Source: a virus. From it: 26,284 nucleotides of DNA. A model generated the notes under the pieces. It was not told the origin of the DNA. It saw nothing but the letters and a program-made list of their open reading frames with translations, and searched no databases. The position numbers were made by a program, and so were the translations under genes. The first letter of the stretch is position 1. Every line of letters starts with the position of its first letter. Shown here piece by piece: positions 3,892 through 17,083 of the stretch. The stretch spans positions 1 through 26,284 of IMG/VR virus record IMGVR_UViG_3300025086_000201. The stretch is one strand, 5' to 3'.

Positions 3892-5469
3892 TTAGAAAGT
3901 CTCCTCCAAAACATTCCAATATTGCCCACGTTTTTTCAGGACCACTGATGTTGGCTTGGGTGCCGACTTGATCATGTAGCTCAAACGATTGGGTGGACAC
4001 GGTAACGTGACGGGTAAATTTCGTCTATCAAAAAATCGATAAACATCATCACTTTCTTTATTGGTGTTCAAAAATTTAGTTGCCGTGATCTTGGCATTGT
4101 TCTCTGTAAGGCAAACATACTTTACGGAAATGTAATTTTTTCCACGAGGGACAAAGCCCTGACAGGCCGATACAGTAGCTGTAACACTGCCGTTGTCACC
4201 TATAGCTTTACCAGTGTTAGGATCAACAGGCTCTATCGTGGTAAGGCCAGGATGTAGGAACCGTTCCTTCTTAACAAACGGTAAGGGAATAAAATTACCT
4301 TCAACTATTTCATCGTTAATTGTTGGACGCTTTTCCATCGTCCATTGTGGCATCATAGAGCAACCACCAAGCCTGAGAAAATTACCAGCAAAGTCTAGAA
4401 CCAGACAATCTTTTTTACCCTGAGACAATCGCGTGCCTCGACCTAACGTCTGAACCCACAGGCTACTTGAAAGTGTTGGACGCAAAGATATAATACAATC
4501 AAGACTAGGTAAATCAAATCCAGTAGTCAGCATATCAACACTGGTTACTGCATTATATCGACCATCCTCTAAGCCCTGATAAACTTCTTGACGTTCATCT
4601 TGATCCATCTTGGAATGTAAGACAGCTACCTTACGGTCAGTGTATTTTTCTAATTTTTTCTTAACGACCATAGCAACCAAAATTGTAGGCGTGTATACAG
4701 CCATAATTTTTCTGTCACGAGCTACGGTATCGAGCTTTTTACAAACAGATGTAAGCCAACCGTCAGTGATCAACCGTGATGCATCTGCCTGATTGAAATC
4801 ATTACCGATCAATTCACAGTCGCTCAAATCCAATTGGATACGGTCTGAGGCTCCGACTAATGGGGATAGGTAACCTTCTTCTACACCTCGTTCTACATTA
4901 TATTCGTAACTGCATTTATTAAACCACCGACTGCCAGAGCTATCGTGTAGGTCACCATTATTGCTATCTCGAACATTGTCATTCTCCCTATAAATTAATC
5001 CGTTATCCAATCTCCAAGGCGTTGCCGTCAAAGCAACTTTTTGGGAACGTGGATAGGCTGTAAATAGTTTTTCGTATTGGCTCGTTCCGTTTTCACATGG
5101 CACCCTGTGAGCCTCGTCTATGATGATTATATCAGGTGCTAAAATGCTAAGATTAGATATGGTCTGAATTGTACCATAAATAATTTTTTCATTTATATCT
5201 TGTTCAGTTGGTTTATGGATCGAGCTACAACAAATGCCGACAGGTAAAGCAGATAGTCTTTTAAACTGTGCCACATTTTGTTGAACCAACTTTGTGGTGT
5301 GCGTTAAAATCCAAACCCGTTTATTCTGTCGGCTAAGTGTGTAGGCCAAATCAGCTATAATCAATGATTTGCCAGTTCCAGTAGCTAGATTGAGAACGGG
5401 GTTGTAGCCCTTCTCTAAATCAGCCAAGCAAGTTTTGATTGCTTCAAGTTGATAAGGTCTAGCCCTCAT
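3892..5469 (-). CDS. SF2 DEAD/DEAH-box helicase
   Basis: The protein is a 525-residue superfamily 2 helicase resembling phage RadD/Type III-res-like helicases. It shows the Q-motif-like RPYQLEAI at the N-terminus, motif I ATGTGKS (29-35), motif II DEAH (118-121), motif III TAT (148-150), LHSKMDQ and DMLTTGFDLP in the second RecA lobe, and motif VI QTLGRGTR near residue 365. The C-terminal ~120 residues are lineage-specific. An ATG also occurs at 5481, but 5469 is chosen because GAGG lies six bases upstream. It overlaps the end of the small ribbon-helix-helix-like gene by 11 bases and abuts the primase fusion. Likely roles are replication-fork or recombination helicase; which one cannot be decided from sequence. 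Confidence 0.9.
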   Translation of the reverse strand: MRARPYQLEAIKTCLADLEKGYNPVLNLATGTGKSLIIADLAYTLSRQNKRVWILTHTTKLVQQNVAQFKRLSALPVGICCSSIHKPTEQDINEKIIYGTIQTISNLSILAPDIIIIDEAHRVPCENGTSQYEKLFTAYPRSQKVALTATPWRLDNGLIYRENDNVRDSNNGDLHDSSGSRWFNKCSYEYNVERGVEEGYLSPLVGASDRIQLDLSDCELIGNDFNQADASRLITDGWLTSVCKKLDTVARDRKIMAVYTPTILVAMVVKKKLEKYTDRKVAVLHSKMDQDERQEVYQGLEDGRYNAVTSVDMLTTGFDLPSLDCIISLRPTLSSSLWVQTLGRGTRLSQGKKDCLVLDFAGNFLRLGGCSMMPQWTMEKRPTINDEIVEGNFIPLPFVKKERFLHPGLTTIEPVDPNTGKAIGDNGSVTATVSACQGFVPRGKNYISVKYVCLTENNAKITATKFLNTNKESDDVYRFFDRRNLPVTLPCPPNRLSYMIKSAPKPTSVVLKKRGQYWNVLEETF

Positions 5470-5632
5470 TAGATGCCTCATCTCTGAGGTGTTGCGCTAC
5501 TTTTAATAAACGCTCACGGTCAGCCTCTGGGACTAACACCGTGACCTTGACAAACCCCAACGCCAGATTTTTCTGACGTTGAGTTTCGTTCCACCGCATC
5601 TGGGTGTTTTTATCATATTTGTTATCAGTCAT
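5459..5632 (-). CDS. Small ribbon-helix-helix-like protein
   Basis: This 57-residue gene starts at ATG 5632, which overlaps the preceding stop by one base (TAATG), and ends inside the helicase start. After a basic N-terminus (MTDNKYDKNTQMRWNETQ) comes FVKVTVLVPEADRERLLKVA (28-47) and then AQHLRDEA. A short beta strand, then a VPEADRERL-type helix and a second helix is the arrangement of Arc/MetJ/CopG ribbon-helix-helix regulators, which bind DNA as dimers on short palindromes. The remaining turn/helix signature cannot be verified by eye, so the assignment is tentative. It is the second gene after the operator-containing promoter at 5973-6001, where an autoregulator might sit. Confidence 0.65.
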   Translation of the reverse strand: MTDNKYDKNTQMRWNETQRQKNLALGFVKVTVLVPEADRERLLKVAQHLRDEASNEG

Positions 5633-5943
5633 TATGCCACCTCCTTTAAAACATTGATTTTGGTTAGGGCTTTAGTTGCAACTGAAACTACTTCTTTCTG
5701 AGAAGTGTGAGCTAATAAAAACTGTCGTGAAACTTTAGCTTTTAAGGCAGAAGTATCAACCACATTACGAGTAGCAGTGCGGATTTGCACAACGTGCTCA
5801 GTGCCTAAAACGTCACAGGAATTACCATGATTTACTTTAAGGTGAGATTTTAGAACTTTTAATCGTGCAGTTTTTGTAGCAATGTCTGCCTCTAAAGAAG
5901 CAATTTCGTTAACTGTTGAAATTTCTGTAAAAATTGTTTTCAT
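5632..5943 (-). CDS. Hypothetical protein with N-terminal coiled coil
   Basis: The 103-residue protein starts at ATG 5943 (MKTIFTEISTVN). The frame opens six codons earlier, but GGAG at 5950-5953 and the ATAAC leader fix the start at 5943. Residues 12-40 (VNEIASLEADIATKTARLKVLKSHLK) look like a helical coiled coil. A beta-rich middle (SCDVLGTEHVVQIRTATRNVVD) and a Lys/Val-rich tail (LKAKVSRQFLLAHT, VSVATKALTKINVLKEVA) follow. Its layout resembles small phage recombination or host-interaction proteins, but no family is recognised. It is the first gene of the leftward replication block, directly under the promoter/operator at 5973-6001. Confidence 0.75.
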   Translation of the reverse strand: MKTIFTEISTVNEIASLEADIATKTARLKVLKSHLKVNHGNSCDVLGTEHVVQIRTATRNVVDTSALKAKVSRQFLLAHTSQKEVVSVATKALTKINVLKEVA

Positions 5944-6001
5944 CGTTATCTCCGTTATCAAGTTATTCTTATGTTATACATCCTAATTATATTAGGGTCA
6001 A
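5944..6001 (-). promoter_or_regulatory. Sigma70-like promoter with palindromic operator and ATAAC leader
   Basis: On the minus strand: -35 TTGACC (6001-5996), a 17-bp spacer (5995-5979), -10 TATAAC (5978-5973), then the ATAAC-TTG-ATAAC-GGAG leader and ATG 5943. The region containing the spacer holds the palindrome CCTAATATAATTAGG (5982-5996), which overlaps the -35. It starts right after the stop of the gene at 6008 and should drive the whole replication/modification block down to position 1. Confidence 0.8.
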
Positions 6002-6007
6002 GTGTGT

Positions 6008-6412
6008 TTATTCATTTTTTATTTGCATGGCGTGACGCATAAAAGCCTCTGCCCAGACAGCGTAATGAACAGCACACGATGTTTTACAAAAAAGTCCGTT
6101 GCCATATTTGTGGGGAAGGTAATCACCATTCCATACAATGCGTGTCTTTCTATTAAAGCTATCTCTTTTATGAGATAAAACTACACCGTTTGTCGGAGGC
6201 CATTCTGGAAAAGTGTTAGGTGTTTCAGCGTGCTTATCCCATTCGTCACCTTTAGGTAGTTTTCTCCTATAGTCTGATCCATTGTTTTTTAAATCATCCC
6301 ATTCAAGCCATGAGTTCTCCGACCATTCACCGTCATCGTTAGAGTTGAGGTACTGTAGCTCTGTGTCTTTCTTGGGTGGTTTGTTGCACCACTTACAATT
6401 TTCAACTGTCAT
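6008..6412 (-). CDS. Hypothetical protein with zinc-finger-like Cys pairs
   Basis: The 134-residue protein begins MTVENCKWCNKPPKK and ends with GLFCKTSCAVHYAVWAEAFMRHAM. The pairs C6-x2-C9 and FCKTSC (C-x3-C) about 100 residues later could bring together one zinc site, as in treble-clef folds, with an acidic/aromatic insert between (EWSENSWLEWDDL and DEWDKH). No family is recognised. ATG 6412 overlaps the stop of the upstream gene by 4 bases (ATGA), so it is translationally coupled and closes the short unit that runs from 7641 leftward. The next promoter begins immediately after its stop. Confidence 0.75.
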   Translation of the reverse strand: MTVENCKWCNKPPKKDTELQYLNSNDDGEWSENSWLEWDDLKNNGSDYRRKLPKGDEWDKHAETPNTFPEWPPTNGVVLSHKRDSFNRKTRIVWNGDYLPHKYGNGLFCKTSCAVHYAVWAEAFMRHAMQIKNE

Positions 6413-6702
6413 AATGACCTCGATACTGTTACAGCCATTTTGTCTTTAGTCTGTCTTATAGTTATATCTGTTTCTGAAGGAGAATGTCTCCTTAAATAAC
6501 TATAAATTGTGGATCTCATATTATTTAAAACTGTTTGATTATCGGCATGGCGATACGATGCCATACCATATTCATTACGTTTATCCAAAAACTCTTTAAT
6601 GGTTATCAGGCGTTGTTCACCAATTTCCCAAGTGTGGATAGGAACATCAAACATCTCATCACAAAAAGCAGTCGGTTTAAAAAGTTTATTTTTCTGAACC
6701 AT
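6409..6702 (-). CDS. Hypothetical protein (97 aa)
   Basis: The likely start is ATG 6702 (MVQKNKLFKPTAFC), overlapping the end of the upstream gene by 17 bases. The frame is open to 6780, but those extra residues would lie wholly inside the upstream gene. The second half, NQTVLNNMRSTIYSYLRRHS followed by DITIRQTKDKMAVTVSRSL, suggests a helix then a beta hairpin, and might be DNA- or RNA-binding. That is only an impression. No family is recognised. It is coupled on both sides within the five-gene chain 7268-6008. Confidence 0.65.
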   Translation of the reverse strand: MVQKNKLFKPTAFCDEMFDVPIHTWEIGEQRLITIKEFLDKRNEYGMASYRHADNQTVLNNMRSTIYSYLRRHSPSETDITIRQTKDKMAVTVSRSL

Positions 6703-6979
6703 TATTTTTATCCAATCTGATACGTTGAACTTGAGGATCATTAAACCATTTATCTCTACGGAGATTAGTGTCATCATCAATAAATTTTCGTAATTGAATA
6801 TGAACGTCTAAATTAGTTGGCACAAATTCATCCATAGCCGTTGATAAAAAGTGCTCTAAAATAATGTATCTGGGAATGTTAAATGTTTCACAGAAAACTT
6901 GAACCTGTTCCAATAAACTTTGTCTAAATAATGTTGATGGCACTGTCACAGGACTATTAACTTTAGGTTGCTTGCTCAT
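6686..6979 (-). CDS. Hypothetical protein (97 aa)
   Basis: The start is ATG 6979 (MSKQPKVNSPVTVPSTLF), preceded by GGAG eight bases upstream and overlapping the stop of the 32-residue membrane ORF (ATGA). The longer frame up to 7111 would run through that small gene and is rejected. The first 50 residues (VPSTLFRQSLLEQVQVFCETFNIPRYIILEHFL) have an amphipathic helical look with a ribbon-helix-helix-like arrangement, but this is not secure. The C-terminal half is charged (RKFIDDDTNLRRDKW). Function unknown. Confidence 0.65.
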   Translation of the reverse strand: MSKQPKVNSPVTVPSTLFRQSLLEQVQVFCETFNIPRYIILEHFLSTAMDEFVPTNLDVHIQLRKFIDDDTNLRRDKWFNDPQVQRIRLDKNNGSEK

Positions 6980-7074
6980 TGTGTAACTCCAAATCCGATT
7001 GCATAAAAATAAATTAAAACAGGGATGCCTACCAAACAGCAAACACCCCCAACAAATTCCATTAGATCTTTCAT
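6976..7074 (-). CDS. Very small single-span membrane protein (32 aa)
   Basis: ATG 7074 overlaps the previous stop (ATGA) and its own stop overlaps the next start (ATGA at 6979). The 32-residue product (MKDLMEFVGGVCCLVGIPVL and on to FGVTQ) is a single hydrophobic helix of about 20 residues with a short polar head. Support comes from the exact 4-base overlaps on both sides and from the strong membrane-helix composition. Roles of such tiny early phage membrane proteins include host-physiology takeover; none can be assigned here. Confidence 0.6.
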   Translation of the reverse strand: MKDLMEFVGGVCCLVGIPVLIYFYAIGFGVTQ

Positions 7075-7268
7075 ACGAAAGCCTCCCATTTATAGTCACC
7101 TTCCCACTCATTCATAAAGTCTCTGAAAATAGGAGAAGTCACATTGATCGAGTGAAGGTATGGGTAGCGCATTTTTCTCAACAGCCACAGTTCGCCACGG
7201 GCTGAAACAGGTTTGACGCAAACCACGTTTTTCTCATTGGTATCAAAATTAACTGCAAAATCATTCAT
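7071..7268 (-). CDS. Hypothetical protein (65 aa)
   Basis: The start is ATG 7268 (MNDFAVNFDTNEKN), fixed by GGAG at 7277-7280 and the ATAAC leader; the frame is open further upstream across a hairpin and is not used. Residues are mixed beta and aromatic (NVVCVKPVSARGELWLLRKM, then FRDFMNEWEGDYKWEAFV). There is no signal peptide or membrane helix and no family is recognised. Its stop overlaps the ATG of the 32-residue membrane protein. It begins a chain of five overlapping genes. Confidence 0.7.
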   Translation of the reverse strand: MNDFAVNFDTNEKNVVCVKPVSARGELWLLRKMRYPYLHSINVTSPIFRDFMNEWEGDYKWEAFV

Positions 7269-7271
7269 ATC

Positions 7272-7292
7272 GTTATCTCCGTTATAAGTTAT
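7272..7292 (-). promoter_or_regulatory. ATAAC leader with GGAG ribosome-binding site (no promoter)
   Basis: Minus strand order: ATAAC-TT-ATAAC-GGAG-ATAAC, then the ATG at 7268. No -35/-10 pair lies upstream; instead a UACG hairpin (7297-7312) precedes it. It is an internal copy of the leader inside a transcript starting at about 7667. Confidence 0.7.
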
Positions 7293-7296
7293 AGGA

Positions 7297-7312
7297 AGGG
7301 GCCGTAGCCCCT
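7297..7312 (-). other. Intercistronic hairpin with UACG tetraloop
   Basis: On the minus strand AGGGGC-TACG-GCCCCT forms a perfect 6-bp stem closed by C-G around UACG, a member of the very stable UNCG tetraloops. It lies between the stop at 7318 and the next leader. No U tract follows, so it is more likely an RNA-stability or processing element, or an inefficient terminator. Confidence 0.6.
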
Positions 7313-7317
7313 GTTGG

Positions 7318-7641
7318 TTAAATACAAAAAAATCCACGCCGTGCAAAGTGAGTAATGTCTGTGCCGTTGTCTAAGCGTCTACAGTAATCACTCAACATAA
7401 ACACAATTGCCCATCGTCCTGTGGACACTTGAGTAACCATAAAAATTGGATCAAAATCTGTTTGATTGTAAGCACTAAAATCTTGAGCTTCTTTTTCAGC
7501 AATATCAAATGCTCTTTCATGGGAAGCATAGGTTTTAATGCTTGATTTGTTTTCTTTAAGTCGTTTTTCAATGCGATCAACGGCACTAGAAATAAAGTTG
7601 CCACTAACTTTGTGAATTCCAATTGGTGGTAAGTAAGTCAT
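7318..7641 (-). CDS. Hypothetical protein (107 aa)
   Basis: ATG 7641 follows GGAG (7650-7653) and a full promoter-leader unit. The N-terminus (MTYLPPIGIHKVSGNFISSA) is followed by a charged helix (VDRIEKRLKENKSSIKTYAS, then HERAFDIAEKEAQDF) and a beta-rich C-terminus (DPIFMVTQVSTGRWAIVFML, then a short Arg/Phe-rich end). There is no membrane segment. No family is recognised. It is the first gene of the unit 7641-6008. Confidence 0.7.
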   Translation of the reverse strand: MTYLPPIGIHKVSGNFISSAVDRIEKRLKENKSSIKTYASHERAFDIAEKEAQDFSAYNQTDFDPIFMVTQVSTGRWAIVFMLSDYCRRLDNGTDITHFARRGFFCI

Positions 7642-7701
7642 ATCAATTTCTCCGTTATCAAGTTATACAAAGAATATAACCCTACTATGTAGTAGGGTCA
7701 A
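7642..7701 (-). promoter_or_regulatory. Sigma70-like promoter with perfect palindromic operator and ATAAC leader
   Basis: Minus strand: -35 TTGACC (7701-7696), 17-bp spacer (7695-7679), -10 TATATT (7678-7673), then ATAAC-TTG-ATAAC-GGAG and ATG 7641. The spacer region carries CCCTACTACATAGTAGGG, an 18-bp palindrome with perfect 8-bp arms. It begins six bases after the stop of the gene at 7707. Confidence 0.82.
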
Positions 7702-7706
7702 GTCTT

Positions 7707-7997
7707 TTATGCTATTTCTTTTAAACTTTTTACAAATGGGTGAACTTTAAGTTTGGCAACTTGTTTGTCACTTCCCAAACTACGGATTACCCTTAACCTT
7801 CCAGAAATATGTCTTTCATGGTTCAAAAGATTTTTTATGGTTGTTAACATAGCATCGTGGCCTAGAATAGTAGCCTCAATGACTTTGGAGGTAATACAGT
7901 AATCAAGCTCAAAAGCATTTTTACGAGCTTCAGCTACAGTGCAAAACCAGTCGGTGCTGTTCGAGCCTGTTGGGTCTTCTACTTGAAATAATTTCAT
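7707..7997 (-). CDS. Hypothetical protein (96 aa)
   Basis: The start is ATG 7997 (MKLFQVEDPTGSNSTDWFCT) with AGGAG eight bases upstream; an in-frame extension to 8057 lies inside the upstream gene and is rejected. Residues 1-45 look like a small alpha/beta module (VAEARKNAFELDYCITSKVIEA), followed by a helical middle and a basic C-terminus (GSDKQVAKLKVHPFVKSLKE). No family is recognised. It starts one base after the stop of the preceding gene (TAA A ATG), so it shares the transcript from 8535. Confidence 0.7.
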   Translation of the reverse strand: MKLFQVEDPTGSNSTDWFCTVAEARKNAFELDYCITSKVIEATILGHDAMLTTIKNLLNHERHISGRLRVIRSLGSDKQVAKLKVHPFVKSLKEIA

Positions 7998-7998
7998 T

Positions 7999-8235
7999 TT
8001 ACCACTCCTTCTTAAAATCGTCTTTTTCGTTTTCTTCATAGCCCTCGTAATATTCACGAATGCTTTCCTCAGTCATATCGCACTCTTCAACCTTGCGAGA
8101 GCGATAAGTGCCTTCCTCGTAGAAATGAGGCTTACGAGGTCTGCCGTAGTAACTGTCAGCCATGCCTCTGTCATAAGGTGACCCGTGACGATGGGTGACA
8201 GGTGAAACTGAAATCCAATGTAGTAATTTAGCCAT
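7999..8235 (-). CDS. Hypothetical protein, acidic and Tyr-rich (78 aa)
   Basis: ATG 8235 is preceded by GGAG and an internal ATAAC leader. The sequence is polar: HGSPYDRGMADSYYGRPRKP (17-36), then CDMTEESIREYYEGYEENEK (52-71), ending in DDFKKEW. The N-terminal half is basic and His/Tyr-rich, the C-terminal half strongly acidic. It looks largely disordered apart from a C-terminal helix. A polar two-charge layout of this sort occurs among phage host-takeover and DNA-mimic proteins, but nothing specific supports that here. Confidence 0.7.
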   Translation of the reverse strand: MAKLLHWISVSPVTHRHGSPYDRGMADSYYGRPRKPHFYEEGTYRSRKVEECDMTEESIREYYEGYEENEKDDFKKEW

Positions 8236-8237
8236 TT

Positions 8238-8258
8238 GTTATCTCCGTTATTAGTTAT
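8238..8258 (-). promoter_or_regulatory. ATAAC leader with GGAG ribosome-binding site (no promoter)
   Basis: Minus strand: ATAAC-TA-ATAAC-GGAG-ATAAC then AAATG for the gene at 8235. The 27-base gap to the upstream stop is too short for a promoter. This is another internal copy of the shared leader. Confidence 0.7.
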
Positions 8259-8262
8259 AATT

Positions 8263-8508
8263 TTAAAGTGGACTTAATTGAAATAAAATTCTTTCATAAA
8301 AAATTGCAACGGGTTCTGAATTATCTGTTTCTTGCATATAATGATATTGTTTATCAGTATCGATACTATCATTAGCAGAAACCAATAATGCTGTAGCTTG
8401 CTTGAGTGAAAGATCAGCTTTTGACGTTGCTAATGTAATTTCATCAGTGACCTTATCGTCAAGATCGTACCAAATGTGTTTTTTAATTACTTTGTATTTA
8501 TTAGCCAT
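8263..8508 (-). CDS. Hypothetical protein (81 aa)
   Basis: ATG 8508 follows GGAG (8516-8519) and the promoter-leader at 8511-8565. The protein begins MANKYKVIKKHIWYDLDDKV, continues with a beta/alpha pattern (EITLATSKADLSLKQATALL) and ends FYERILFQLSPL. It is soluble and small with no family recognised. It is the first gene of a three-gene unit (8508-7707). Confidence 0.72.
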   Translation of the reverse strand: MANKYKVIKKHIWYDLDDKVTDEITLATSKADLSLKQATALLVSANDSIDTDKQYHYMQETDNSEPVAIFYERILFQLSPL

Positions 8509-8510
8509 TT

Positions 8511-8565
8511 GTTATCTCCGTTGTTAGTTATTACTCTTTATACACCCTAACCGTATTAGGGTCAA
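8511..8565 (-). promoter_or_regulatory. Sigma70-like promoter with palindromic operator and ATAAC leader
   Basis: Minus strand: -35 TTGACC (8565-8560), 17-bp spacer (8559-8543), -10 TATAAA (8542-8537), then ATAAC-TA-ACAAC-GGAG-ATAAC and ATG 8508. The operator is CCCTAATACGGTTAGGG, overlapping the -35. It shares AATACGGTTA with the operator at 9673-9689 in the divergent region. It follows directly after a strong terminator. Confidence 0.85.
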
Positions 8566-8570
8566 CCCCT

Positions 8571-8604
8571 AAAATAAAAAAAAGGGAGAGCCGTAGCCCT
8601 CCCC
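8571..8604 (-). terminator. Rho-independent terminator, minus strand
   Basis: On the minus strand GGGAGGGC-TACG-GCTCTCCC forms an 8-bp stem (one G-U pair) closed on a UACG tetraloop (8603-8584), followed at once by eight U and then AUUUU. The wobble pair makes the structure better on the minus strand. It terminates the single-gene unit 8611-8958 and separates it from the next promoter. Confidence 0.88.
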
Positions 8605-8610
8605 TTATTA

Positions 8611-8958
8611 TTAGAAGTTATAGTCATAATGTTTATGTGGAGCTTCCGCTAAATTAAAACGGCTACCACCACTGTTTTTCCATTGCCCTGATTTATGTTT
8701 ACGAATACGAATAACAGGATTGTTCAAATTAGATTTAATGTCCCACTTTTGACCTTCGACATTTCTGGTAGCGTGACCAAAAAATCCACCGTAAACAAAA
8801 CCAAGATCTTTAGTAGTGTGGAGTTGTTCTGCATCCATCTCTCTGATCTCTAAAGTCTTATCTGAAATCACTTTAACAATTTCGTAAGGACTAACATCGG
8901 ACCACCCGTGAAAGTTTGCGTATCCGAAAGAACCATCTTTGTTTGTGAATTTAACCAT
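8611..8958 (-). CDS. Hypothetical protein (115 aa)
   Basis: ATG 8958 (MVKFTNKDGSFGYANFHGW) follows GGAG and its own promoter-leader, and the gene is closed by a strong terminator, so it is a one-gene unit. The sequence is aromatic and beta-rich, with EIVKVISDKTLEIREMDAEQ in the middle and VIRIRKHKSGQWKNSG near the end. The pattern of a small beta-barrel with an EIREMDA core followed by IRxRKxGxW is one I associate with uncharacterised phage proteins. No function can be given. Confidence 0.75.
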   Translation of the reverse strand: MVKFTNKDGSFGYANFHGWSDVSPYEIVKVISDKTLEIREMDAEQLHTTKDLGFVYGGFFGHATRNVEGQKWDIKSNLNNPVIRIRKHKSGQWKNSGGSRFNLAEAPHKHYDYNF

Positions 8959-9018
8959 CTTTATTTCTCCGTTATCAAGTTATAAAAAGAACCTAACCCT
9001 ACTGTAAGGTAGGGTCAA
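8959..9018 (-). promoter_or_regulatory. Promoter with palindromic operator and ATAAC leader (weak -10)
   Basis: Minus strand: -35 TTGACC (9018-9013), 17-bp spacer (9012-8996), -10 TAGGTT (8995-8990), then ATAAC-TTG-ATAAC-GGAG and ATG 8958. The operator is CCCTACCTTACAGTAGGG. The -10 is the poorest of the set, so this promoter may be weaker or need activation. Confidence 0.7.
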
Positions 9019-9031
9019 GTCCTAATTTCAT

Positions 9032-9547
9032 TCAGGCTACTTTTTTTTCAGGGTCAACATCCCTCATTATATTTTTGTTGACTATCTCTCTACGGAGAAT
9101 GCGATAGATCTTCTGCCAGTTCTTCCCGTGAGGTGTGTTGTCACCGTCACGCAACCACCGTGTGTAGATGAAGTAATTGAAGTGTATGAGATGTGCTACC
9201 TCATGGGCAACGATAAGCATCAGAGCGTCCTCTGGGGTTGCAAACGTACCTTCCCCAATAATCGGATCGTTTTTAATTCGGGCGTACTCATGTTGAAAAG
9301 TTCTACCCTTGCGATATTGACTTACATCAATACACATATAATTTTTACCGCCAGATGAACTTTGGCCTCGACACTTAACTTTAAGATATAGTTTATCCCA
9401 GACTTTAGCGACAGTCAGTTTCTCAGATCTTGGCCCCATGATTTCCCATTTGGATTTCACGATCTCTTTCAGGCATTGTTTGGTAAGACGCTTCACCAAG
9501 TCGCGCTCTGCGATAGTGACGTTTTTAGATTTATAAATTAATCCCAT
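9032..9547 (-). CDS. SprT-like zinc metalloprotease
   Basis: The 171-residue protein carries AHEVAHLIH (HExxH at 115-119) and a third ligand in HGKNWQ (H140), the arrangement of SprT/Spartan-like zincins. E116 would be the catalytic base. The N-terminal half (AERDLVKRLTKQCLKEIVKS, then VAKVWDKLYLKVKCRG) is family-typical support structure. Eukaryotic Spartan removes DNA-protein crosslinks; roles in phages are not established. Length is normal for the compact bacterial/phage version. It is the first leftward gene from the divergent control region, under the strongest-looking promoter, so it is probably expressed very early. Start ATG 9547 has GGAG nine bases upstream. Confidence 0.82.
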   Translation of the reverse strand: MGLIYKSKNVTIAERDLVKRLTKQCLKEIVKSKWEIMGPRSEKLTVAKVWDKLYLKVKCRGQSSSGGKNYMCIDVSQYRKGRTFQHEYARIKNDPIIGEGTFATPEDALMLIVAHEVAHLIHFNYFIYTRWLRDGDNTPHGKNWQKIYRILRREIVNKNIMRDVDPEKKVA

Positions 9548-9607
9548 AGTTAAATCTCCGTTATTGAGTTATTTAAGAAGTATACGCCTAATCGTATTAG
9601 TTGTCAA
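9548..9607 (-). promoter_or_regulatory. Near-consensus sigma70 promoter with operator and ATAAC leader
   Basis: Minus strand: -35 TTGACA (9607-9602), 17-bp spacer (9601-9585), -10 TATACT (9584-9579), then ATAAC-TCA-ATAAC-GGAG and ATG 9547. The spacer contains CTAATACGATTAG. It has the best match to consensus of all promoters here and reads leftward out of the divergent region. Confidence 0.87.
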
Positions 9608-9695
9608 TACACCTGGTAAGTCATTGTTTTTATTGACTTTTTTTGGGCCCTAAACCGAAATCGGTTAGCAGTTTACCGAATACGGTTAAATAGGG
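9608..9695. promoter_or_regulatory. Divergent control region with paired palindromic operators
   Basis: Between the leftward -35 (9607) and the rightward -35 (9696) lie two palindromes: AACCGAAATCGGTT (9653-9666) and ACCGAATACGGT (9675-9686, inside TTACCGAATACGGTTAA). Their centres are 21 bp apart, two helical turns, fitting side-by-side binding of a dimeric regulator. The second site sits 7-10 bp upstream of the rightward -35. AATACGGTTA is shared with the operator at 8543-8560. An AT-rich segment (9621-9644) lies on the left side. No gene is seen here. A replication origin is possible but not shown. Confidence 0.65.
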
Positions 9696-9745
9696 TTGTC
9701 ATTTCTGAGGCGATTCGTTATGGTTGCAGAGTCATAACTTATAAC
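9696..9745 (+). promoter_or_regulatory. Rightward promoter with ATAAC-type leader lacking GGAG
   Basis: Plus strand: -35 TTGTCA (9696-9701), 17-bp spacer, -10 TATGGT (9719-9724), followed by ATAAC-TT-ATAAC at 9734-9745. Unlike the leftward copies the ATAAC pair is followed by GAAATAGC and not GGAG. The spacer is not palindromic; the operators lie upstream of the -35. It should drive 9759-14660. Confidence 0.65.
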
Positions 9746-9758
9746 GAAATAGCGACTA

Positions 9759-9932
9759 ATGATGCTTTCAAAATTTGTACTCATATTATTTTGTCTAGGC
9801 ACCCTTGCACTTTATGCCTATGTATCCTCTGCCGATTGGGACATGGAAGATCGGGAGTTTAAGGAATATTGTCAGATGGTAAAGTGGGGAGCTTGGCCCG
9901 ACTATAAAAATCTGGAGCAACACTGTGACTGA
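9759..9932 (+). CDS. Small signal-anchored protein upstream of the polymerase (57 aa)
   Basis: ATG 9759 is followed by a second ATG and a hydrophobic helix (LSKFVLILFCLGTLALYAYV, residues 3-22), then an acidic segment and EYCQMVKWGAWPDYKNLEQHCD. The last part, with two Cys separated by a W-x-WPDY motif, is a pattern I recall from many small marine phage proteins. It is probably membrane-anchored or exported, and the Cys pair (C38, C56) could form a disulfide. There is no strong Shine-Dalgarno site. The stop overlaps the polymerase GTG start by 8 bases. First gene of the rightward unit; function unknown. Confidence 0.7.
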   Translation: MMLSKFVLILFCLGTLALYAYVSSADWDMEDREFKEYCQMVKWGAWPDYKNLEQHCD

Positions 9933-11748
9933 AAAGCATTGGGTGTTTGACACAGAGGTCTATAGCAATTGCACATTATTTTTAGCTCAGTGTGTTGAGA
10001 CAGAGGAATGGTTTGAACTGTTTAAATCTGACGATGGGTCTGACAGTCGTTTAGAAGCGTTTCTGAGGGAGCCTAATACATTTGTTGGGTTCAACTCCCA
10101 AAATTATGACACCCTCATTGTATCGGCTTGGTGTCAGGGTATGAGTAGCGAACAGATTAAGGCTATGAGTGATGACATCATTCAAAACGAAATCAGCCCG
10201 TTTGCAATCAAGAAAAAATATAAGTTAAAAGACAAAATTAAAAATCATATAGATTTGATTGAGGTTGCCCCGTCATTTGTGGGTCTTAAAGCATACGGTG
10301 CGAGAATGTTTATGGATCTCCTTCAGGACTTGCCATTTGAACCTGATAGCGTACTCACAGAGCACGATGAACATGAGTTGGCGTTGTACTGTCAAAATGA
10401 TGTTAAGACCACTGTAGAGCTATTTAAAAGGCTTCAGAAAGAGATTGAACTGCGAATAGAGTTGTCGGTGCAATATTGGTTAGATCTCCGTAGCAAATCT
10501 GATAGTCAAATTGCAGAACAGGTATTTATAAAAAATTTGAAGTTAAAGGCACAGGAAATACCAATTCCAAAAACGGTACGGTATCAACCGCCTCATTATT
10601 TACAAATGTATTTCAGTGGAACTCAGGAGGTTTTAGACAGAGCCTCAAATTTAGAATTTCAGGTAGACCAACAGTCAGGTCACATTAAGATGCCGTCTGA
10701 GTTGGATATTGAAGTCTACAGTCGCACTGGGTCATATAAGATTGGTATCGGTGGTCTACATAGTACCCACGATAAAAAGGTTACTCACGTTGCAGGTAAA
10801 GACCACCAGATCATGGAAATAGATGCAGCGAGCTTTTACCCCACGATAATGTTAAATGGCGGTCTGTGTCCTTCTCATATCGGTCAAAAGTTTATTGACG
10901 AATATCAACGGATTTATGATCAACGCATTAAGGCTAAAATGTCAGGGGATAAGACTGTAGCTGACACGCTCAAAATTAGTTTGAACGGTACGTTTGGAAA
11001 ACTGGCAAGCAAACATTCAACACTCTATGCCCCAGACCTTATGTTAGCCACAACTCTGACGGGTCAGTTTACATTACTGATGTTGATTGAATGGCTTGAG
11101 AACGAGGGATCAGAAATTGAAATCCTGTCAGCTAATACAGACGGCATTGTCGTAAAGTTTCCAAATTTTAGAGAACAAAATGTTAGAGATTGTGTGGCTG
11201 AATTTGAGGAACTGTCTTGTTTCAGTTTTGAATACACGCCATACAAGTGTCTCGCCATAAAAGACGTTAACAATTATATTGCCGTGAAACCTGATCAGAC
11301 GATCAAAGCTAAGGGGATATATGCTCCAATCAGTTTACGCAAAAATCCCACGGCTCCAATCTGCTCAGAGGCTGTAGGCAAGTGGTTAGCAACAGGCGTG
11401 GACTTTGAGACAACGATTGATCAAGCACCCTTCCACGGCTTTATAACAGCCCGTAGCGTGACAGGTGGAGCACAACAAGGTGGATTGTATCTAGGAAAAG
11501 TTGTGAGGTGGTATCAATCAACTGAGAGCGCAACACTTGCACCAATCCTTTATGAAAAGAACGGCAACAAGGTAGCTAAATCTGAAGGAGCGCGACAGTG
11601 CATGAATATACAGAAGTGGGATGAACAACCAAAAGATTTAGACAAGGCTTGGTATGTTCGGGAATGTATTGAGATTGCCCATCAATTAGGTGCCGAAACT
11701 TTTCTTGATCTTAATCAAATATTTGTCAGTAATTTTGGAGTGAAATAA
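9925..11748 (+). CDS. Family B DNA polymerase with 3'-5' exonuclease
   Basis: This 607-residue polymerase has all exonuclease motifs: DTE (Exo I, D9/E11), FNSQNYD (Exo II, 56-62) and YCQND (Exo III, Y155/D159). The polymerase motifs are EIDAASFYPT (A, D300), KISLNGTFG (B, 350-358) and ANTDG (C, catalytic D406). The first Asp of the usual DTD motif C is Asn; the second, catalytic one is retained, so activity is expected. It is short for family B, and with a separate primase encoded it need not be protein-primed. The start is GTG 9925 with GGAG seven bases upstream; the next gene overlaps by one base (TAATG). It is the replicative polymerase of this phage. Confidence 0.93.
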   Translation: MTEKHWVFDTEVYSNCTLFLAQCVETEEWFELFKSDDGSDSRLEAFLREPNTFVGFNSQNYDTLIVSAWCQGMSSEQIKAMSDDIIQNEISPFAIKKKYKLKDKIKNHIDLIEVAPSFVGLKAYGARMFMDLLQDLPFEPDSVLTEHDEHELALYCQNDVKTTVELFKRLQKEIELRIELSVQYWLDLRSKSDSQIAEQVFIKNLKLKAQEIPIPKTVRYQPPHYLQMYFSGTQEVLDRASNLEFQVDQQSGHIKMPSELDIEVYSRTGSYKIGIGGLHSTHDKKVTHVAGKDHQIMEIDAASFYPTIMLNGGLCPSHIGQKFIDEYQRIYDQRIKAKMSGDKTVADTLKISLNGTFGKLASKHSTLYAPDLMLATTLTGQFTLLMLIEWLENEGSEIEILSANTDGIVVKFPNFREQNVRDCVAEFEELSCFSFEYTPYKCLAIKDVNNYIAVKPDQTIKAKGIYAPISLRKNPTAPICSEAVGKWLATGVDFETTIDQAPFHGFITARSVTGGAQQGGLYLGKVVRWYQSTESATLAPILYEKNGNKVAKSEGARQCMNIQKWDEQPKDLDKAWYVRECIEIAHQLGAETFLDLNQIFVSNFGVK

Positions 11749-12056
11749 TGCCAACAGTTTACGTTATACAAAACGACAATAAAGATTTATCAGATGCTAA
11801 ACAGTATGGAGAGCTTGAGGCAGTTTTCTTTAATCCTAGAAAGCCATACGATACTAATTTTTTATTAGACATGGCTCACAAGGTTTTAAGCAAAATAACC
11901 AAATATGATTACATTCTTATGGTAGGTGACCCTGCTTTGTGTAGCGTGGCAACGGCTGTTGCACGCGAATACTGTGATGAAATAAATATACTCAGTTGGG
12001 ATAGACGGAGCTTCAGCTACGCCCCTCTGACGTTCGATTTTGCAGATGCGGAATGA
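11748..12056 (+). CDS. Conserved-looking hypothetical protein (102 aa)
   Basis: The product begins MPTVYVIQNDNKDLSDAKQY and contains a hydrophobic strand-loop DYILMVGDPALCSVATAVA (54-72). This gives an alpha/beta impression, with a VGDPA turn resembling a small nucleotide- or substrate-binding loop, but no catalytic signature. Proteins of this type sit between polymerase and recombinase genes in other phages, to my recollection without a known function. ATG overlaps the polymerase stop (TAATG), and its own stop precedes the Sak4-like start by about 30 bases. Confidence 0.75.
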   Translation: MPTVYVIQNDNKDLSDAKQYGELEAVFFNPRKPYDTNFLLDMAHKVLSKITKYDYILMVGDPALCSVATAVAREYCDEINILSWDRRSFSYAPLTFDFADAE

Positions 12057-12085
12057 CAACCGCTAATTTCATAAAGGAGAAAAAA

Positions 12086-12838
12086 ATGTCAAAACAAAAA
12101 GAACCTGAATGGCAAAGGAGTTTGCGTGTTGGTAAACAGAAAGTGCCACCCCGTATTTGTTTGTACGGAGGTCATGGGATCGGCAAGTCAACATTGGCTA
12201 GTCAGTTCCCAGAACCAATCTTTATAAGTACAGAGGACGGCCTAGATAGTTTGGACGTTACGAGCTTTCCAAAGGCTACCGAAAATAGTCAGATTATCGA
12301 TGCGATAGGCACGTTAATTAAAGAAGATCACAAATTTAAAACGTGTGTTATTGACTCAGTGGATTGGCTAATAGAGCCTTTAATTTCCACCCTCGTAGAA
12401 AATAGTCACGAGGCTAAAGATTTAGCTTACGGTAAATTTGCCGTGTTATGTGCTGAAGAATTTCGTGAGATATTACAAGGTTTGGATGTGCTCCGTCAAA
12501 AACGTGGCATGAACATTGTGTTGGTTGCTCACTCTCAGGTATCTAAATTTGAAGATCCAAGAACTGAGCCTTACGATAGGTATAGTCCAAAGCTACCAAA
12601 CAGATGTAATGCTCTACTAATGGAGTGGGTAGATGTTTTAGCATTTTGTGCAATGGATGTGATGATACGAAAATCAGACACTGGCTTTAACACTTCAAAG
12701 ACACGAGGTGTATCGTCAGGTGAACGTCTGTTGCACTATGTTGAAACGCCAGCTTTCGCATCTAAAAATCGTTACGGTTGCCCAGAGCAATCACCAATGA
12801 CCTATGAAGAATTATCTTCTGTAATCCCTGTTGTATAA
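12086..12838 (+). CDS. RecA-like ATPase (AAA_24, Sak4-type annealing/recombination)
   Basis: The 250-residue ATPase has Walker A GGHGIGKST (28-36), FISTEDGLDSL (46-56), Walker B VIDSVDW (88-94) and IVLVAHSQV near residue 150. This is the single-domain RecA-like fold of phage Sak4/AAA_24 proteins, which promote single-strand annealing or recombination together with an SSB. The frame opens at 12053, but AAAGGAG seven bases before ATG 12086 decides the start. It is followed after 15 bases by the DUF669-type protein and then a nuclease, making a recombination cassette. Sak4 versus another RecA-like subfamily cannot be settled by eye. Confidence 0.85.
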   Translation: MSKQKEPEWQRSLRVGKQKVPPRICLYGGHGIGKSTLASQFPEPIFISTEDGLDSLDVTSFPKATENSQIIDAIGTLIKEDHKFKTCVIDSVDWLIEPLISTLVENSHEAKDLAYGKFAVLCAEEFREILQGLDVLRQKRGMNIVLVAHSQVSKFEDPRTEPYDRYSPKLPNRCNALLMEWVDVLAFCAMDVMIRKSDTGFNTSKTRGVSSGERLLHYVETPAFASKNRYGCPEQSPMTYEELSSVIPVV

Positions 12839-12853
12839 AGAAAGGAAACAACA

Positions 12854-13327
12854 ATGCCTAAATTTGGATTTGATATAACTGAAGTTGAAGCTAACGAGCC
12901 AATCAATTATGACCCATTACCAAAAGGTGAATACACCTTGCGTGGCATAGAGGCTGAGTTAAAAGACACCAAAAATAACGCTGGCAGTTACATTGCTGTT
13001 AAGTACGAGGTATCTAAAGGTGAATATGAAGGACGTTTTATCTGGTTTAATTTTAACGTCACGAATGCATCTCAACAGGCTGAGACTATCGGTAGACAAC
13101 AATTAGTTGCATGGGCAACAGCTTGTGGAAAGCCTGACTGTGATGACACCGATATGTTAATGGAAAAACCATTTCAGGCAAATGTTGGGATACGGACAGG
13201 AACAAATGGTTATGCTGATAAAAACGAGATAACAGGTTTTCTTTTTAAACCTTCAGCAAAACCACGGCCTGCTCCTAAATCAGCACCTGTGGAAACCCCG
13301 TCAAGTTCAGGTAAGCCTTGGGATTAA
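12854..13327 (+). CDS. DUF669-type ssDNA-binding protein candidate
   Basis: The 157-residue protein begins MPKFGFDITEVEANEPINYD, followed by LPKGEYTLRGIEAELKDTKN and YIAVKYEVSKGEYEGRFIWF, the standard start of DUF669 proteins encoded next to phage recombinases. After a beta-rich core (to about 135) there is a Pro/Ala/Lys/Ser linker and a short acidic end (KPWD), echoing the partner-binding tails of SSB proteins. It is expected to coat single-stranded DNA for the neighbouring ATPase and polymerase. The Shine-Dalgarno AAAGGA is eight bases upstream. A stable GC hairpin lies right after the stop. Confidence 0.8.
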   Translation: MPKFGFDITEVEANEPINYDPLPKGEYTLRGIEAELKDTKNNAGSYIAVKYEVSKGEYEGRFIWFNFNVTNASQQAETIGRQQLVAWATACGKPDCDDTDMLMEKPFQANVGIRTGTNGYADKNEITGFLFKPSAKPRPAPKSAPVETPSSSGKPWD

Positions 13328-13335
13328 TAATAACA

Positions 13336-13355
13336 GGGGAGGGTTATCCCTCCCC
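13336..13355 (+). other. Perfect GC-rich intercistronic hairpin
   Basis: GGGGAGGG-TTAT-CCCTCCCC is a perfect 8-bp stem with a 4-base loop between the DUF669-type gene and the nuclease gene. It is not followed by a U tract on the plus strand, so it is probably not a strong terminator. It could stabilise the upstream message or lower expression of downstream genes. Confidence 0.65.
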
Positions 13356-13368
13356 ATAAGGATTACTT

Positions 13369-14187
13369 ATGGTTGCGTTTCCTAAAAGCCCAGAACAAAA
13401 ACTTATAGATGCTGTATATAAATCTTATGAAAAAACAGAAAACCTGTCGTTTAGTCGATTAGGTGCGTCTGGTATCGGTGAAGAATGTATTCGTAAAATC
13501 TGGTTTAACTGGCGTGGATTTTCAAAAAAACAATTTGAAGGACGGATGTTAAGACTGTTTGAAACAGGCCATTTACAAGAAGACCGTGTAATTCAGGATT
13601 TAATTCGATCTGGTAAAGAAGTTTATTTTGTTAATGAGTATGGCAGTCAATACGAATTTGAACATGACAGTGGTCATTTTATTTGTAAGGTTGATGGTGT
13701 TATAAAACACCAAGATAAAAATCATTTATTAGAAATAAAAACGCATAATAAAAAATCATTCAGTGCATTACAGAGACACGGTGTAGAAAAGTCTAAACCC
13801 GTTCACTATAGCCAAATGCAAATCTCTATGTATTTAGGACACTTTACACGAGGCTTATATGTGTCGTTATGTAAAGACGATGAACATTATTACATTGAAA
13901 AAATAAAAGAAGACAAAGCTCATCAAAAATCATTGATTAAAAAAATAGAAAGTCTGATTAATGCACGCATGAGGCCAACAGGCATTAGTGAGGATGCGAG
14001 TATTTTTGCTTGTAAATTTTGTGATCATAAAGATGTGTGCGTTAAAGAAACAAAACCTCTGTTTCATTGTCGATCTTGTGTGAATGCTATTCCTATAAAT
14101 AATGGTGGATGGAATTGTGACTTGCATGGTACGCTTTTAAACAAGCAACAACAACTCATAGGATGTGAGGACTATCAGGCATTATGA
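13369..14187 (+). CDS. Cas4/RecB-like PD-(D/E)XK nuclease with Fe-S-type cysteines
   Basis: The 272-residue nuclease has the PD-(D/E)XK core KVDGVI (D109), LEIK (E122, K124) and HYSQMQ (Q149/Q151, the RecB-type QxxxY region). Cysteines C40 and C215-x2-C218-x5-C224 match the spacing of the 4Fe-4S cluster in Cas4, AddB and Dna2. A further group (HCRSC 233-237, WNC 248-250, C266) could bind a second metal. In phages such enzymes act as recombination exonucleases with an annealing ATPase and SSB, exactly its neighbours here. AAGGA precedes ATG 13369. Its stop overlaps the RuvC start by 4 bases. CRISPR adaptation is unlikely: no cas gene or repeat array is present. Confidence 0.85.
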   Translation: MVAFPKSPEQKLIDAVYKSYEKTENLSFSRLGASGIGEECIRKIWFNWRGFSKKQFEGRMLRLFETGHLQEDRVIQDLIRSGKEVYFVNEYGSQYEFEHDSGHFICKVDGVIKHQDKNHLLEIKTHNKKSFSALQRHGVEKSKPVHYSQMQISMYLGHFTRGLYVSLCKDDEHYYIEKIKEDKAHQKSLIKKIESLINARMRPTGISEDASIFACKFCDHKDVCVKETKPLFHCRSCVNAIPINNGGWNCDLHGTLLNKQQQLIGCEDYQAL

Positions 14188-14660
14188 TTACCATTGGAAT
14201 AGATCCTGGCCTTACTGGAGCCATTGGTGTTTTAAATGATGGTCAATTTGTTGCTGTAGAGGATATGCCAGTTATCGTGAAGGGAAACGGTAAAGTAAAA
14301 AATGAAGTAGATGTTTCTGGCACTATCCGACTGTTGAGGCAATACGGAGAACCTTCTGAATATATTTCGTGTGTTATTGAGCGTGTTAATGCAAGACCGC
14401 ATCAGAATGTATCAACCATATTTTCGTTGGGTGACTCTTTTGGGTGTGCTCGTTCTGCTGTATCGGCTTGCCGTTTTGAACTACGGTATGTAACGCCACA
14501 GGTATGGAAAAAACATTTTAAATTAAGTTCTGACAAAGAACAGTGTCGGGCATATGCTGTTAAACTATGGCCTGACGCACCATTGCATTTAAAGAAACAC
14601 CAAGACAGGGCCGAAGCCCTGTTGATGTCTAAATGGCTGTACGATACTTTCTACGACTGA
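14184..14660 (+). CDS. ruvC-like: RuvC-like Holliday junction resolvase
   Basis: The 158-residue protein starts MITIGIDPGLTGAIGVL, the RuvC signature with D7, then VIERV (E66), SLGDSFG and the C-terminal LKKHQDRAEALLMSKW (D141, with H139 and E144 close by). Length and acidic residues fit bacterial and phage RuvC, which cuts four-way junctions during recombination and before packaging. ATG overlaps the nuclease stop (ATGA). Its 3' end is only four bases from the convergent gene at 14665 and contains an embedded minus-strand UUCG hairpin. It closes the rightward unit. Confidence 0.88.
   Translation: MITIGIDPGLTGAIGVLNDGQFVAVEDMPVIVKGNGKVKNEVDVSGTIRLLRQYGEPSEYISCVIERVNARPHQNVSTIFSLGDSFGCARSAVSACRFELRYVTPQVWKKHFKLSSDKEQCRAYAVKLWPDAPLHLKKHQDRAEALLMSKWLYDTFYD
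14605..14622 (-). terminator. Possible minus-strand terminator hairpin inside ruvC 3' end
   Basis: On the minus strand ACAGGGC-TTCG-GCCCTGT is a perfect 7-bp stem with the UUCG tetraloop, followed by a moderately U-rich stretch (CUUGGUGUUUCUUU). It is 43 bases past the stop of the leftward gene at 14665, where a terminator is expected. In plus orientation the loop would be CGAA. The tail is weak, so the call is tentative. Confidence 0.5.
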
Positions 14661-14664
14661 CCTA

Positions 14665-15351
14665 TTACCTCCTATCTTCCATTGGGTCCCAACCGTTCCA
14701 ACCATCATTCTCCTGATATGGAGCTACATACTCTTCTGGTTCTGGATCTGGGTCTAAAATTCCAATTCTATTTTCTCTAGTGCTTTCTGTTAACACTGCT
14801 TTGGTAGGTCTTTTGAAAAACCCAAATTTCGGGTCTTTGTCAGATGGTGTAACTGTGGCAGAAAAAGTAATGGTATCGCCCTTGGCACAGTTAGCTACTC
14901 TACCATCAATGCTTGGGATAGATCCCCACACTACAAAACCATTATTATCTTTAACTGTCATTTTCCAAACTGAACCAAAAGGAGTGTTTTTTAGATCAAC
15001 TTTAAGAATTGTACCAGAAACAGTGATTTTACCTGTTGGTACATCTTCCGCTTTAGCTTTCTCTTCTGCCCACTGTGCCTCACGCTCTACTTGTTTTTCT
15101 GCGAAAGTAAGACCACCTGTGATCTCACGCTGTTTAGCTAATCGCTTCTCTTGACGAGCAAGTAAAGCCTCATCTCTTTTTTTCTGAGCACGAGCACGAG
15201 CTAATGCGCGATCTTCAGGAGAAGTTTTGAAGGTTTTGTGACCTACGCCTTCACAATCCCAACAAGATTTTTTATGATCAGGACGGTCAATTACACCCCA
15301 TCTAAGAAGTCCTGTGCCGTCACATTTTGTGCAAGTTTCTGTAAAAGCCAT
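14665..15351 (-). CDS. DnaJ-type zinc-finger protein with OB-like domain
   Basis: The 228-residue protein begins with CTKCDGTG (7-14) and CWDCEGVG (30-37), two CxxCxGxG knuckles as in the DnaJ zinc domain. A long charged helix follows (about 42-98, SPEDRALARARAQKKRDEAL and on). Residues 105-190 (TVSGTILKVDLKNTPFG, WKMTVKDNNGFVVWGSI, GDTITFSATVTPSD) look like a small OB-fold barrel. The tail is acidic and aromatic. The combination suggests nucleic-acid binding, perhaps ssDNA, but this is inference. It is the only leftward gene right of the divergent region that has the CCCTA-operator promoter and ATAAC leader, so it is probably regulated with the genes at 1-9547 and not with the late genes. 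Confidence 0.75.
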   Translation of the reverse strand: MAFTETCTKCDGTGLLRWGVIDRPDHKKSCWDCEGVGHKTFKTSPEDRALARARAQKKRDEALLARQEKRLAKQREITGGLTFAEKQVEREAQWAEEKAKAEDVPTGKITVSGTILKVDLKNTPFGSVWKMTVKDNNGFVVWGSIPSIDGRVANCAKGDTITFSATVTPSDKDPKFGFFKRPTKAVLTESTRENRIGILDPDPEPEEYVAPYQENDGWNGWDPMEDRR

Positions 15352-15353
15352 TT

Positions 15354-15409
15354 GTCATCTCCGTTATAAGTTATTCTTTATTTATATACCCTACTTTACT
15401 TAGGGTCAA
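15354..15409 (-). promoter_or_regulatory. Promoter with palindromic operator embedded in endolysin 3' end
   Basis: Minus strand: -35 TTGACC (15409-15404), 17-bp spacer (15403-15387), -10 TATAAA (15386-15381), then ATAAC-TT-ATAAC-GGAG and ATG 15351. The operator is CCCTAAGTAAAGTAGGG. The -35 and half of the operator are also the last codons of the endolysin gene (V-D-P-K-stop), so the site is conserved under two constraints. Confidence 0.82.
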
Positions 15410-16954: not shown

Positions 16955-17083
16955 TTAAGCTCCGTTAAAAGCAGAAATTAGTAAAGCAATTACAATAAAC
17001 GTACTAACAAAAAGTATACCTAGTTGAACGATAATAGGTTGTTTTCCTACCCACGTTTGAATTTTATCTAATAATTTAGGCAT
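16955..17083 (-). CDS. Very small single-span membrane protein (42 aa)
   Basis: ATG 17083 to TAA 16955 encodes MPKLLDKIQTWVGKQPIIVQ followed by a hydrophobic helix (LGILFVSTFIVIALLISAF). The amphipathic N-terminus plus one membrane helix is typical of small phage lysis or host-takeover peptides. It is placed two bases after the stop of the 710-residue virion protein and runs to the start of the GTA-type holin, whose GGAG lies inside its last codons. A holin partner or antiholin role is possible but unproven. Confidence 0.65.
   Translation of the reverse strand: MPKLLDKIQTWVGKQPIIVQLGILFVSTFIVIALLISAFNGA

Follow-up and report, generated by a model that had tools for sequence, protein, structure and literature searches.

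Why do six minus-strand promoters in one viral DNA each carry a palindrome in the spacer between the -35 and -10 boxes? The DNA in question, hereafter the window, is a virus record of 26,284 bases (IMG/VR record IMGVR_UViG_3300025086_000201), and coordinates refer to this whole stretch. An earlier note, made from its letters alone, had read the promoters as targets of one dimeric repressor. Comparison with related phages indicates that the palindrome changes as a set from lineage to lineage, and we propose that it is probably an operator, set in the spacer of sigma70-type promoters, for a lineage-specific dimeric regulator, most likely a repressor.

Six promoters share a palindrome between their -35 and -10 boxes

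All six promoters listed in the earlier note, with the first T of the -35 box at 6001, 7701, 8565, 9018, 9607 and 15409, were present. The box was said to be TTGACC or TTGACA, and it is TTGACA at 9607 and TTGACC at the other five.

5973-6001, minus strand: promoter TTGACC-N17-TATAAC with putative operator CCTAATATAATTAGG (5982-5996), upstream of the 103-amino-acid (103-aa), 57-aa, helicase and primase genes
7673-7701, minus strand: promoter TTGACC-N17-TATATT with putative operator CCCTACTACATAGTAGGG (7680-7697)
8537-8565, minus strand: promoter TTGACC-N17-TATAAA with putative operator CCCTAATACGGTTAGGG (8545-8561), upstream of an 81-aa gene
8990-9018, minus strand: promoter TTGACC-N17-TAGGTT (weak -10) with putative operator CCCTACCTTACAGTAGGG (8997-9014), upstream of a 115-aa gene
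9579-9607, minus strand: promoter TTGACA-N17-TATACT with putative operator CTAATACGATTAG (9588-9600), upstream of a SprT-like gene
15381-15409, minus strand: promoter TTGACC-N17-TATAAA with putative operator CCCTAAGTAAAGTAGGG (15389-15405), upstream of a 228-aa gene

The window overlaps almost identically with a record of 47,273 bases (G001; 6 mismatches in 25,887 aligned bases), which holds two further promoters of this kind outside the window, at 19769 and 20297 on the minus strand. The tabulation of promoters imposed the claimed spacer of 17 base pairs (bp); in a scan of spacings from 15 to 21 bp, 17 bp gave the best -10 box at all eight G001 sites. The two additional promoters keep this spacing, with the start of the palindrome shifted one base to the left. 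The description of the -10 boxes as TATAAA-like holds for TATAAC (6001), TATATT (7701), TATAAA (8565 and 15409) and TATACT (9607) but fails for TAGGTT at 9018. Across G001, seven of the eight boxes match TATAAT at five of six bases, and the 9018 box matches at three.

The six listed palindromes were likewise all found; the earlier note gives them in an order other than that of their coordinates. Their outer arms, described as constant, are nearly but not fully so: the 6001 site lacks the last G, the 9607 site reads ACTAAT...ATTAGG, and the 15409 site pairs CCTAA with GTAGG. The half-site is better described as CCTA(A/C)(T/C/G), with an inner spacing of 3 bp (6001, 8565, 9607 and 15409) or 4 bp (7701 and 9018). 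Each palindrome starts within the final bases of the -35 box and stops just before the -10 box, and all six promoters then run into a common ribosome-binding leader that ends in AACGGAG, and a start codon.

8516-8522, minus strand: AACGGAG leader, junction of exchange for the 81-aa gene
5950-5956, 7650-7656, 8967-8973, 9556-9562 and 15359-15365, minus strand: AACGGAG behind the other five promoters

AACGGAG also occurs with no palindrome promoter in front of it, at 221-227, 7277-7283, 8243-8249 and 16960-16966. A reading of the window sites as terminators was rejected, no T-run following them directly.

This set of palindromes in promoters exceeds chance. CCCTA-N3-8-TAGGG was seen four times in the window against 0.03 expected; none of 100 shuffles reached four. 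By a threshold score, five of the eight TTGAC[CA]-N17-TA sites in the window hold a palindrome; the same score applied to 200 dinucleotide shuffles gave a mean of 0.225 palindrome sites and a maximum of 3. The half-site pattern (type A below) has eight positions in G001, eight of eight in promoters and none outside, for a pattern derived from these same sites.

Related phages carry other palindromes at the same position

The earlier note had proposed looking in relatives, which we gathered using the 228-aa, SprT-like and polymerase proteins as queries. Their promoter spacers proved to be palindromic too, as three different sequences. In one group, type A, the CCTA operators are kept (G001, L011, G003 and G004, with L047, L021, L193 and others). 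A second group, type B (G008-G013, L128, L158, L159, L163, L164, L166 and L167), has a different palindrome, CTACTCCGGAGTAG, at the same spacer position, of which the core TCCGGA is kept and one outer arm is often lost. Type-A positions numbered 8, 6, 4 and 4 in G001, L011, G003 and G004 (22 in total) and 0 in the six B records G008-G013 (182,843 bases together). Type-B sites numbered 4, 4, 4, 3, 3, 4 and 5 in seven B records (27 in total) and 0 in the four A records, and all 27 stand behind TTGAC or TTGCA, that is, in promoters. As each pattern was built from its own group's sites, it is the zeros in the opposite group that constitute the test. Judged by sequence, the two types separate completely in the records compared, and from one phage to a relative the sites switch type together.

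Four low-scoring rows that did not look like cassettes by eye were set aside (G008 17132, G012 9729, L164 6511 and L165 6664). A looser collection pattern, TTGACCCTA-N5-8-TAGGGT, gave at least 119 stretches, from which loci with at least two matches or with the leader were taken; the remainder are probably chance. Among more distant relatives the strict pattern, which is weak evidence of absence, found no spacer palindrome at loci with 37-42% SprT identity, and in the L203-L266 loci of at least 9,000 bases it found one coding-looking site only. Strict viral matches outside the clade amounted to one of nine and one of six, a coding-looking stretch and a terminator-like hairpin.

Within type A, two operators occur in both orientations. 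The 9018 operator of G001 and G003 is the exact reverse complement of that in G004, and the 7701 operator of G001 and L011 is the exact reverse complement of that in L193; in both cases the -35 box, -10 box and leader are the same. Such inverted centres fit symmetric recognition by a protein, and they would equally fit hairpin-driven inversion without function.

A third palindrome was found in CRP-901 and CRP-902, cultured Roseobacter phages whose portal protein is 34% identical to that of G001.

12531, 13163, 13749 and 14298, plus strand, and 1939, minus strand: cassettes of CRP-902 (L290), with one more, less regular, near 2244 on the minus strand
12017, 12647, 13266 and 14279, plus strand, and 1598, minus strand: cassettes of CRP-901 (L300)

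In these units TTG(T/C)AAT comes first, followed by a palindrome resembling TGACA-NN-TGTCA, then a TATA-type box and a leader of the GAGAGAGAG type. They were counted at six places in CRP-902 and five in CRP-901 (five and five by a stricter pattern), leaving out two CRP-901 rows without the leader (41041 and 8576); a further copy of the exact core lies at 28205 of CRP-901. At one CRP-902 site both arms have changed in matching fashion (TGCCA-NN-TGGCA), and two of the 11 sites have one unmatched arm position. The lead to the CRP-902 motif came from a general scan for recurring palindromes in 22 sequences, in which the positive controls failed to stand out and negatives are uninformative. The genes that immediately follow such a site in the two phages, CRP-902 gp25 and CRP-901 gp24, encode proteins with 49% identity to the 115-aa protein of the window (gp25, 50% over 105 residues). 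Members of this 115/123-aa family immediately follow an A site in the window and in L011 and a B site in L128. CRP-902 also encodes an HTH_3 protein, above the family cut-off, adjoining its primase; no match of this protein to G001 or G009 was listed. Lysogeny genes were not found by the authors who described the two phages, according to the accessible part of their report (PMC10149686).

Some shared genes lie under different putative operators

Three genes of the window allow the operator to be compared with the gene that it precedes.

8263-8508, minus strand: 81-aa gene, preceded here by a type-A operator and in G012 by one of type B
9032-9547, minus strand: SprT-like protein, with 93-94% identical orthologues under a type-B operator in G008 and G011
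8611-8958, minus strand: 115-aa gene, whose family lies under A (here and L011), B (L128) and third-type (CRP-901/902) operators

The 81-aa gene provides the clearest case. From one AACGGAG to the next, the window and G012 differ at 5 of 280 bases, and upstream of the gene G012 has TTGACTCTACTCCGGAGTAGTGGTATAAG in place of the type-A site. Placing the A and B labels on a tree of the SprT-like proteins takes two changes, and neither label is one-sided in any of the bootstrap trees (0%). In L011 the 7701 promoter and leader of G001, and also a 9018-like promoter and leader, stand before proteins with different first residues. In these alignments the operator type goes with the phage and not with the gene. 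Exchange of a gene at the leader was seen in one clear case, the 81-aa gene; the leader is not a universal junction, because the close SprT match starts inside the gene.

A gene match ending at leaders on both sides, as for the 81-aa gene, could also arise if promoter, palindrome and leader, which are repeated together, formed a copied cassette and the palindrome served as a hairpin or in recombination, without any regulatory protein; the two inversions between relatives are what hairpin-driven inversion would give. However, the centres differ while the arms are kept, one CRP-902 site has changed both arms in matching fashion, and three unrelated palindromes occur as sets at the same position in different lineages. 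We regard a cassette of this sort as highly unlikely. T4-type mobile promoter stem-loop cassettes (PeSL) are reportedly repeated promoter cassettes linked to gene shuffling; here, unlike there, the palindrome lies inside the spacer, and it is the gene rather than the promoter that is exchanged at the leader.

Candidates for the proposed regulator

If a phage protein sets the operator type, one that scarcely differs between A and B phages is unlikely to be responsible. Among the early proteins that diverge, two small ones are candidates, and they are listed here with other proteins encoded under these promoters.

6686-6979, minus strand: 97-aa protein, leading regulator candidate, ribbon-helix-helix-like by eye only
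5459-5632, minus strand: 57-aa protein, second regulator candidate, second gene under the 6001 promoter
5632-5943, minus strand: 103-aa protein, first gene under the 6001 promoter
7318-7641, minus strand: 107-aa protein, first gene under the 7701 promoter
14665-15351, minus strand: 228-aa protein with a weak, below-cut-off DnaJ-type zinc motif, under the 15409 promoter

The genes of the 97-aa and 57-aa proteins lie behind an operator in both types. The 97-aa protein is 27-36% alike between types (three A and nine B sequences aligned). In its AlphaFold2 (AF2) model, helices are predicted at residues 22-33 and 37-52 (mean predicted local distance difference test score, pLDDT, 63) and, with modest confidence, appear to sit where a ribbon-helix-helix fold needs them. 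Pfam returned no family for the window member and five scattered weak ones among 12 members, a PDB sequence search gave three weak unrelated matches, and neither Foldseek nor a VIA second look supported the fold. A profile comparison with Arc and Mnt, taken from the P22 record, also gave no support, at a profile depth under 2. The ribbon-helix-helix assignment is left as a lead.

The 57-aa protein, which the earlier note had put first as repressor, does differ between types (34-38% alike, two A and eight B sequences aligned), but so do others, and no convincing family was matched. Its model has a helix at residues 8-25, an extended stretch and a helix at 36-55; fold and profile searches lent no support. 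The A and B versions each match PHROG 11804, of unknown function, weakly (E values 0.07 and 0.02). Among 50,697 phage records, no convincing relative was found of the 57-aa B version or of either 97-aa version. Other divergent proteins, for example the 103-aa and a 110-aa protein, are also possible regulators.

Alternatively, a host protein, such as a LexA-type or metal-type repressor, could read the operators, with each lineage carrying the operator of its own host, so that operator switching would track host switching. The absence of a phage regulator from RHH_1, HTH_3 and integrase searches in six records would fit. A marine alphaproteobacterium reportedly has a LexA box of the form CCT-N10-AGG; none of the entries listed by a search for it shows this box. 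There is precedent for a host repressor in phage GIL01, whose promoters are governed by host LexA as far as the accessible text describes (PMC6182141). Against a host protein, phages with 93-94% identical SprT have different operators, and the inner spacing varies from 3 to 4 bp. Moreover, the strict B composite has a single match, without a -10 box by eye, in the genome_contigs collection of 84,980 species, in which the hosts may be missing and for which the A composite was not searched. We consider a host regulator unlikely.

A model for the spacer palindromes

The model that we favour, a lineage-specific dimeric regulator acting at spacer operators, builds on the sites, their position, the separation of types, the genes under different operators and the one leader-to-leader match, all as read from the DNA compared. 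Host RNA polymerase would transcribe these promoters in what looks like a virulent marine phage. A dimeric regulator, specific to the phage lineage, would sit on the palindrome between the -35 and -10 boxes and occlude the polymerase. The genes would be shut down as the regulator accumulates in the course of infection, and the regulator itself is probably encoded within an operon under its control. Genes could move between related phages by exchange at the AACGGAG leader and would then fall under the recipient's operator. As to the earlier proposal of one dimeric repressor, that a single factor reads the operator set is well supported; we infer repression from the position of the palindrome, and the model further supposes transcription, the use of host polymerase, a phage origin of the regulator, autoregulation and timing. 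In the six records searched, whose completeness is not given, no lysogeny genes were detected, and the likely use would be late shut-off of these genes.

The same palindromes might instead be read by an activator or a phage-modified polymerase, such that the promoters are switched on at middle time. The weak -10 box at 9018 (TAGGTT) would suit an activator, and MerR-type activators bind spacer palindromes, in promoters with spacers of 19-20 bp. No such lengthened spacer was found here. Instead, 17 bp is the best spacing at 8/8 G001 sites and 7/8 of the -10 boxes agree with TATAAT at 5/6 positions. This combination of spacing and mostly good boxes makes repression more likely than activation, which we judge distinctly improbable.

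Several observations weigh against the repressor model. The -10 box at 9018 is weak, an inner spacing that varies from 3 to 4 bp fits one rigid dimer only loosely, and the arms at 15409 and at G001 20297 are unmatched. Many B sites keep just one full arm, for example CTACTCCGGAAAAT, which argues against perfect symmetry, and in the CRP phages the placement of the -10 box is uncertain within a range of 16 to 20 bp from the -35-like box. The strongly supported branches of the SprT tree force one label change only, and the close SprT match does not begin at the leader. A and B phages differ across much of the early/replication block, with the result that many proteins co-vary. In the six records, whose completeness is not given, no integrase (PF00589), HTH_3 (PF01381) or RHH_1 match was found, and fold and profile searches with the 97-aa and 57-aa candidates gave no DNA-binding identification.

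The closest known arrangement is that of P22 (BK000583), where the Arc operator is annotated inside the arc/ant promoter, TTGACA-N17-TATATT. There, as here, a palindromic operator fills the spacer, and in P22 the repressor gene lies behind that promoter. Unlike the present case of six to eight sites and no recognised Arc-family protein, P22 is temperate and has one site. In SPbeta, the 15-bp SPBRE motif is present in many phage promoter regions and is bound by the master repressor MrpR; the motif was described long before the protein, according to the accessible text (PMC10516654). SPbeta differs in being a temperate prophage whose MrpR, as that source presents it, is a former recombinase; no counterpart was recognised here.

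The earlier note had also likened the sites to SOS-like systems and to mycobacteriophage stoperators. The data lend no support to an SOS regulon, and they do not bear out the stoperator comparison. In cluster A mycobacteriophages, sites occur genome-wide, and related phages have different consensus sequences that correlate with each phage's own repressor; most sites lie outside promoters and block elongation, as the available part of the source describes (PMC6550527). One cluster A-type phage repressor reads an asymmetric sequence, in the portion available (PMC9283540). By comparison, the sites described here are near-symmetric and lie in promoters in 8/8 type-A (G001) and 27/27 type-B cases.

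The earlier assessment was of a known principle with an apparently new motif. Phage repressors that act at many promoters are known, and a literature search, covering the exact motifs rather than the broader spacer-operator literature, matched three papers, of which the two listed were unrelated by title; the words 'promoter' and 'palindrom' are absent from the text of the CRP-901/902 paper (PMC10149686). What we judge to be new is the motifs, the operator switching and the leader junctions. If the model is correct, DNA alone would allow environmental phage contigs to be assigned to regulatory groups, and the regulator could be sought by co-variation. Phages could also swap genes without breaking their transcription programme, since exchange would occur at the leader and the operator would stay with the chassis. 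The architecture is directly testable in culture with CRP-901 and CRP-902 on Roseobacter sp. FZCC0083. A more speculative extension, which we think rather unlikely, is that the operator set would act as a lineage barcode: genes would move at the shared leader and come under the resident operator, and the repressor of each lineage would silence its own phage and any superinfecting phage of the same barcode, giving immunity groups without lysogeny.

Other features in and near the window

9650-9740, plus strand: divergent region with a separate palindrome pair, AACCGAAATCGGTT and ACCGAATACGGT, and, ahead of the polymerase genes, a possible rightward promoter (TTGTCA-N17-TATGGT); outside the CCTA set
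614-1750, minus strand: TET-associated glycosyltransferase (TAGT; E value 9e-45)

In the divergent region of several B records the palindrome is another one, ACAAAAAATATTATTTGT, for example in L128 at 7998 on the minus strand, and the rightward replication operon may be under the control of a second regulator. Among cultured phages the best portal match is Caulobacter phage RW (L289; 51%), which has a repeated GCAACT...GCTTGCAA element (TGCAA...TTGCA-like) upstream of 9255 and 10462 on the plus strand and of 2109 and 2720 on the minus strand; by eye, and uncounted, this element overlaps -35-like boxes rather than lying in the spacer.

The TAGT gene had no match in the nine other records of the comparison; several of these do not extend over its position. 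B records have a Mom-family protein instead (PF25680, E value 2.6e-34, L128 2264-2932), with orthologues in G008, G009, G010, G012 and G013, and CRP-902 gp22 is Mom-family by similarity. The lineages may thus modify their DNA differently.

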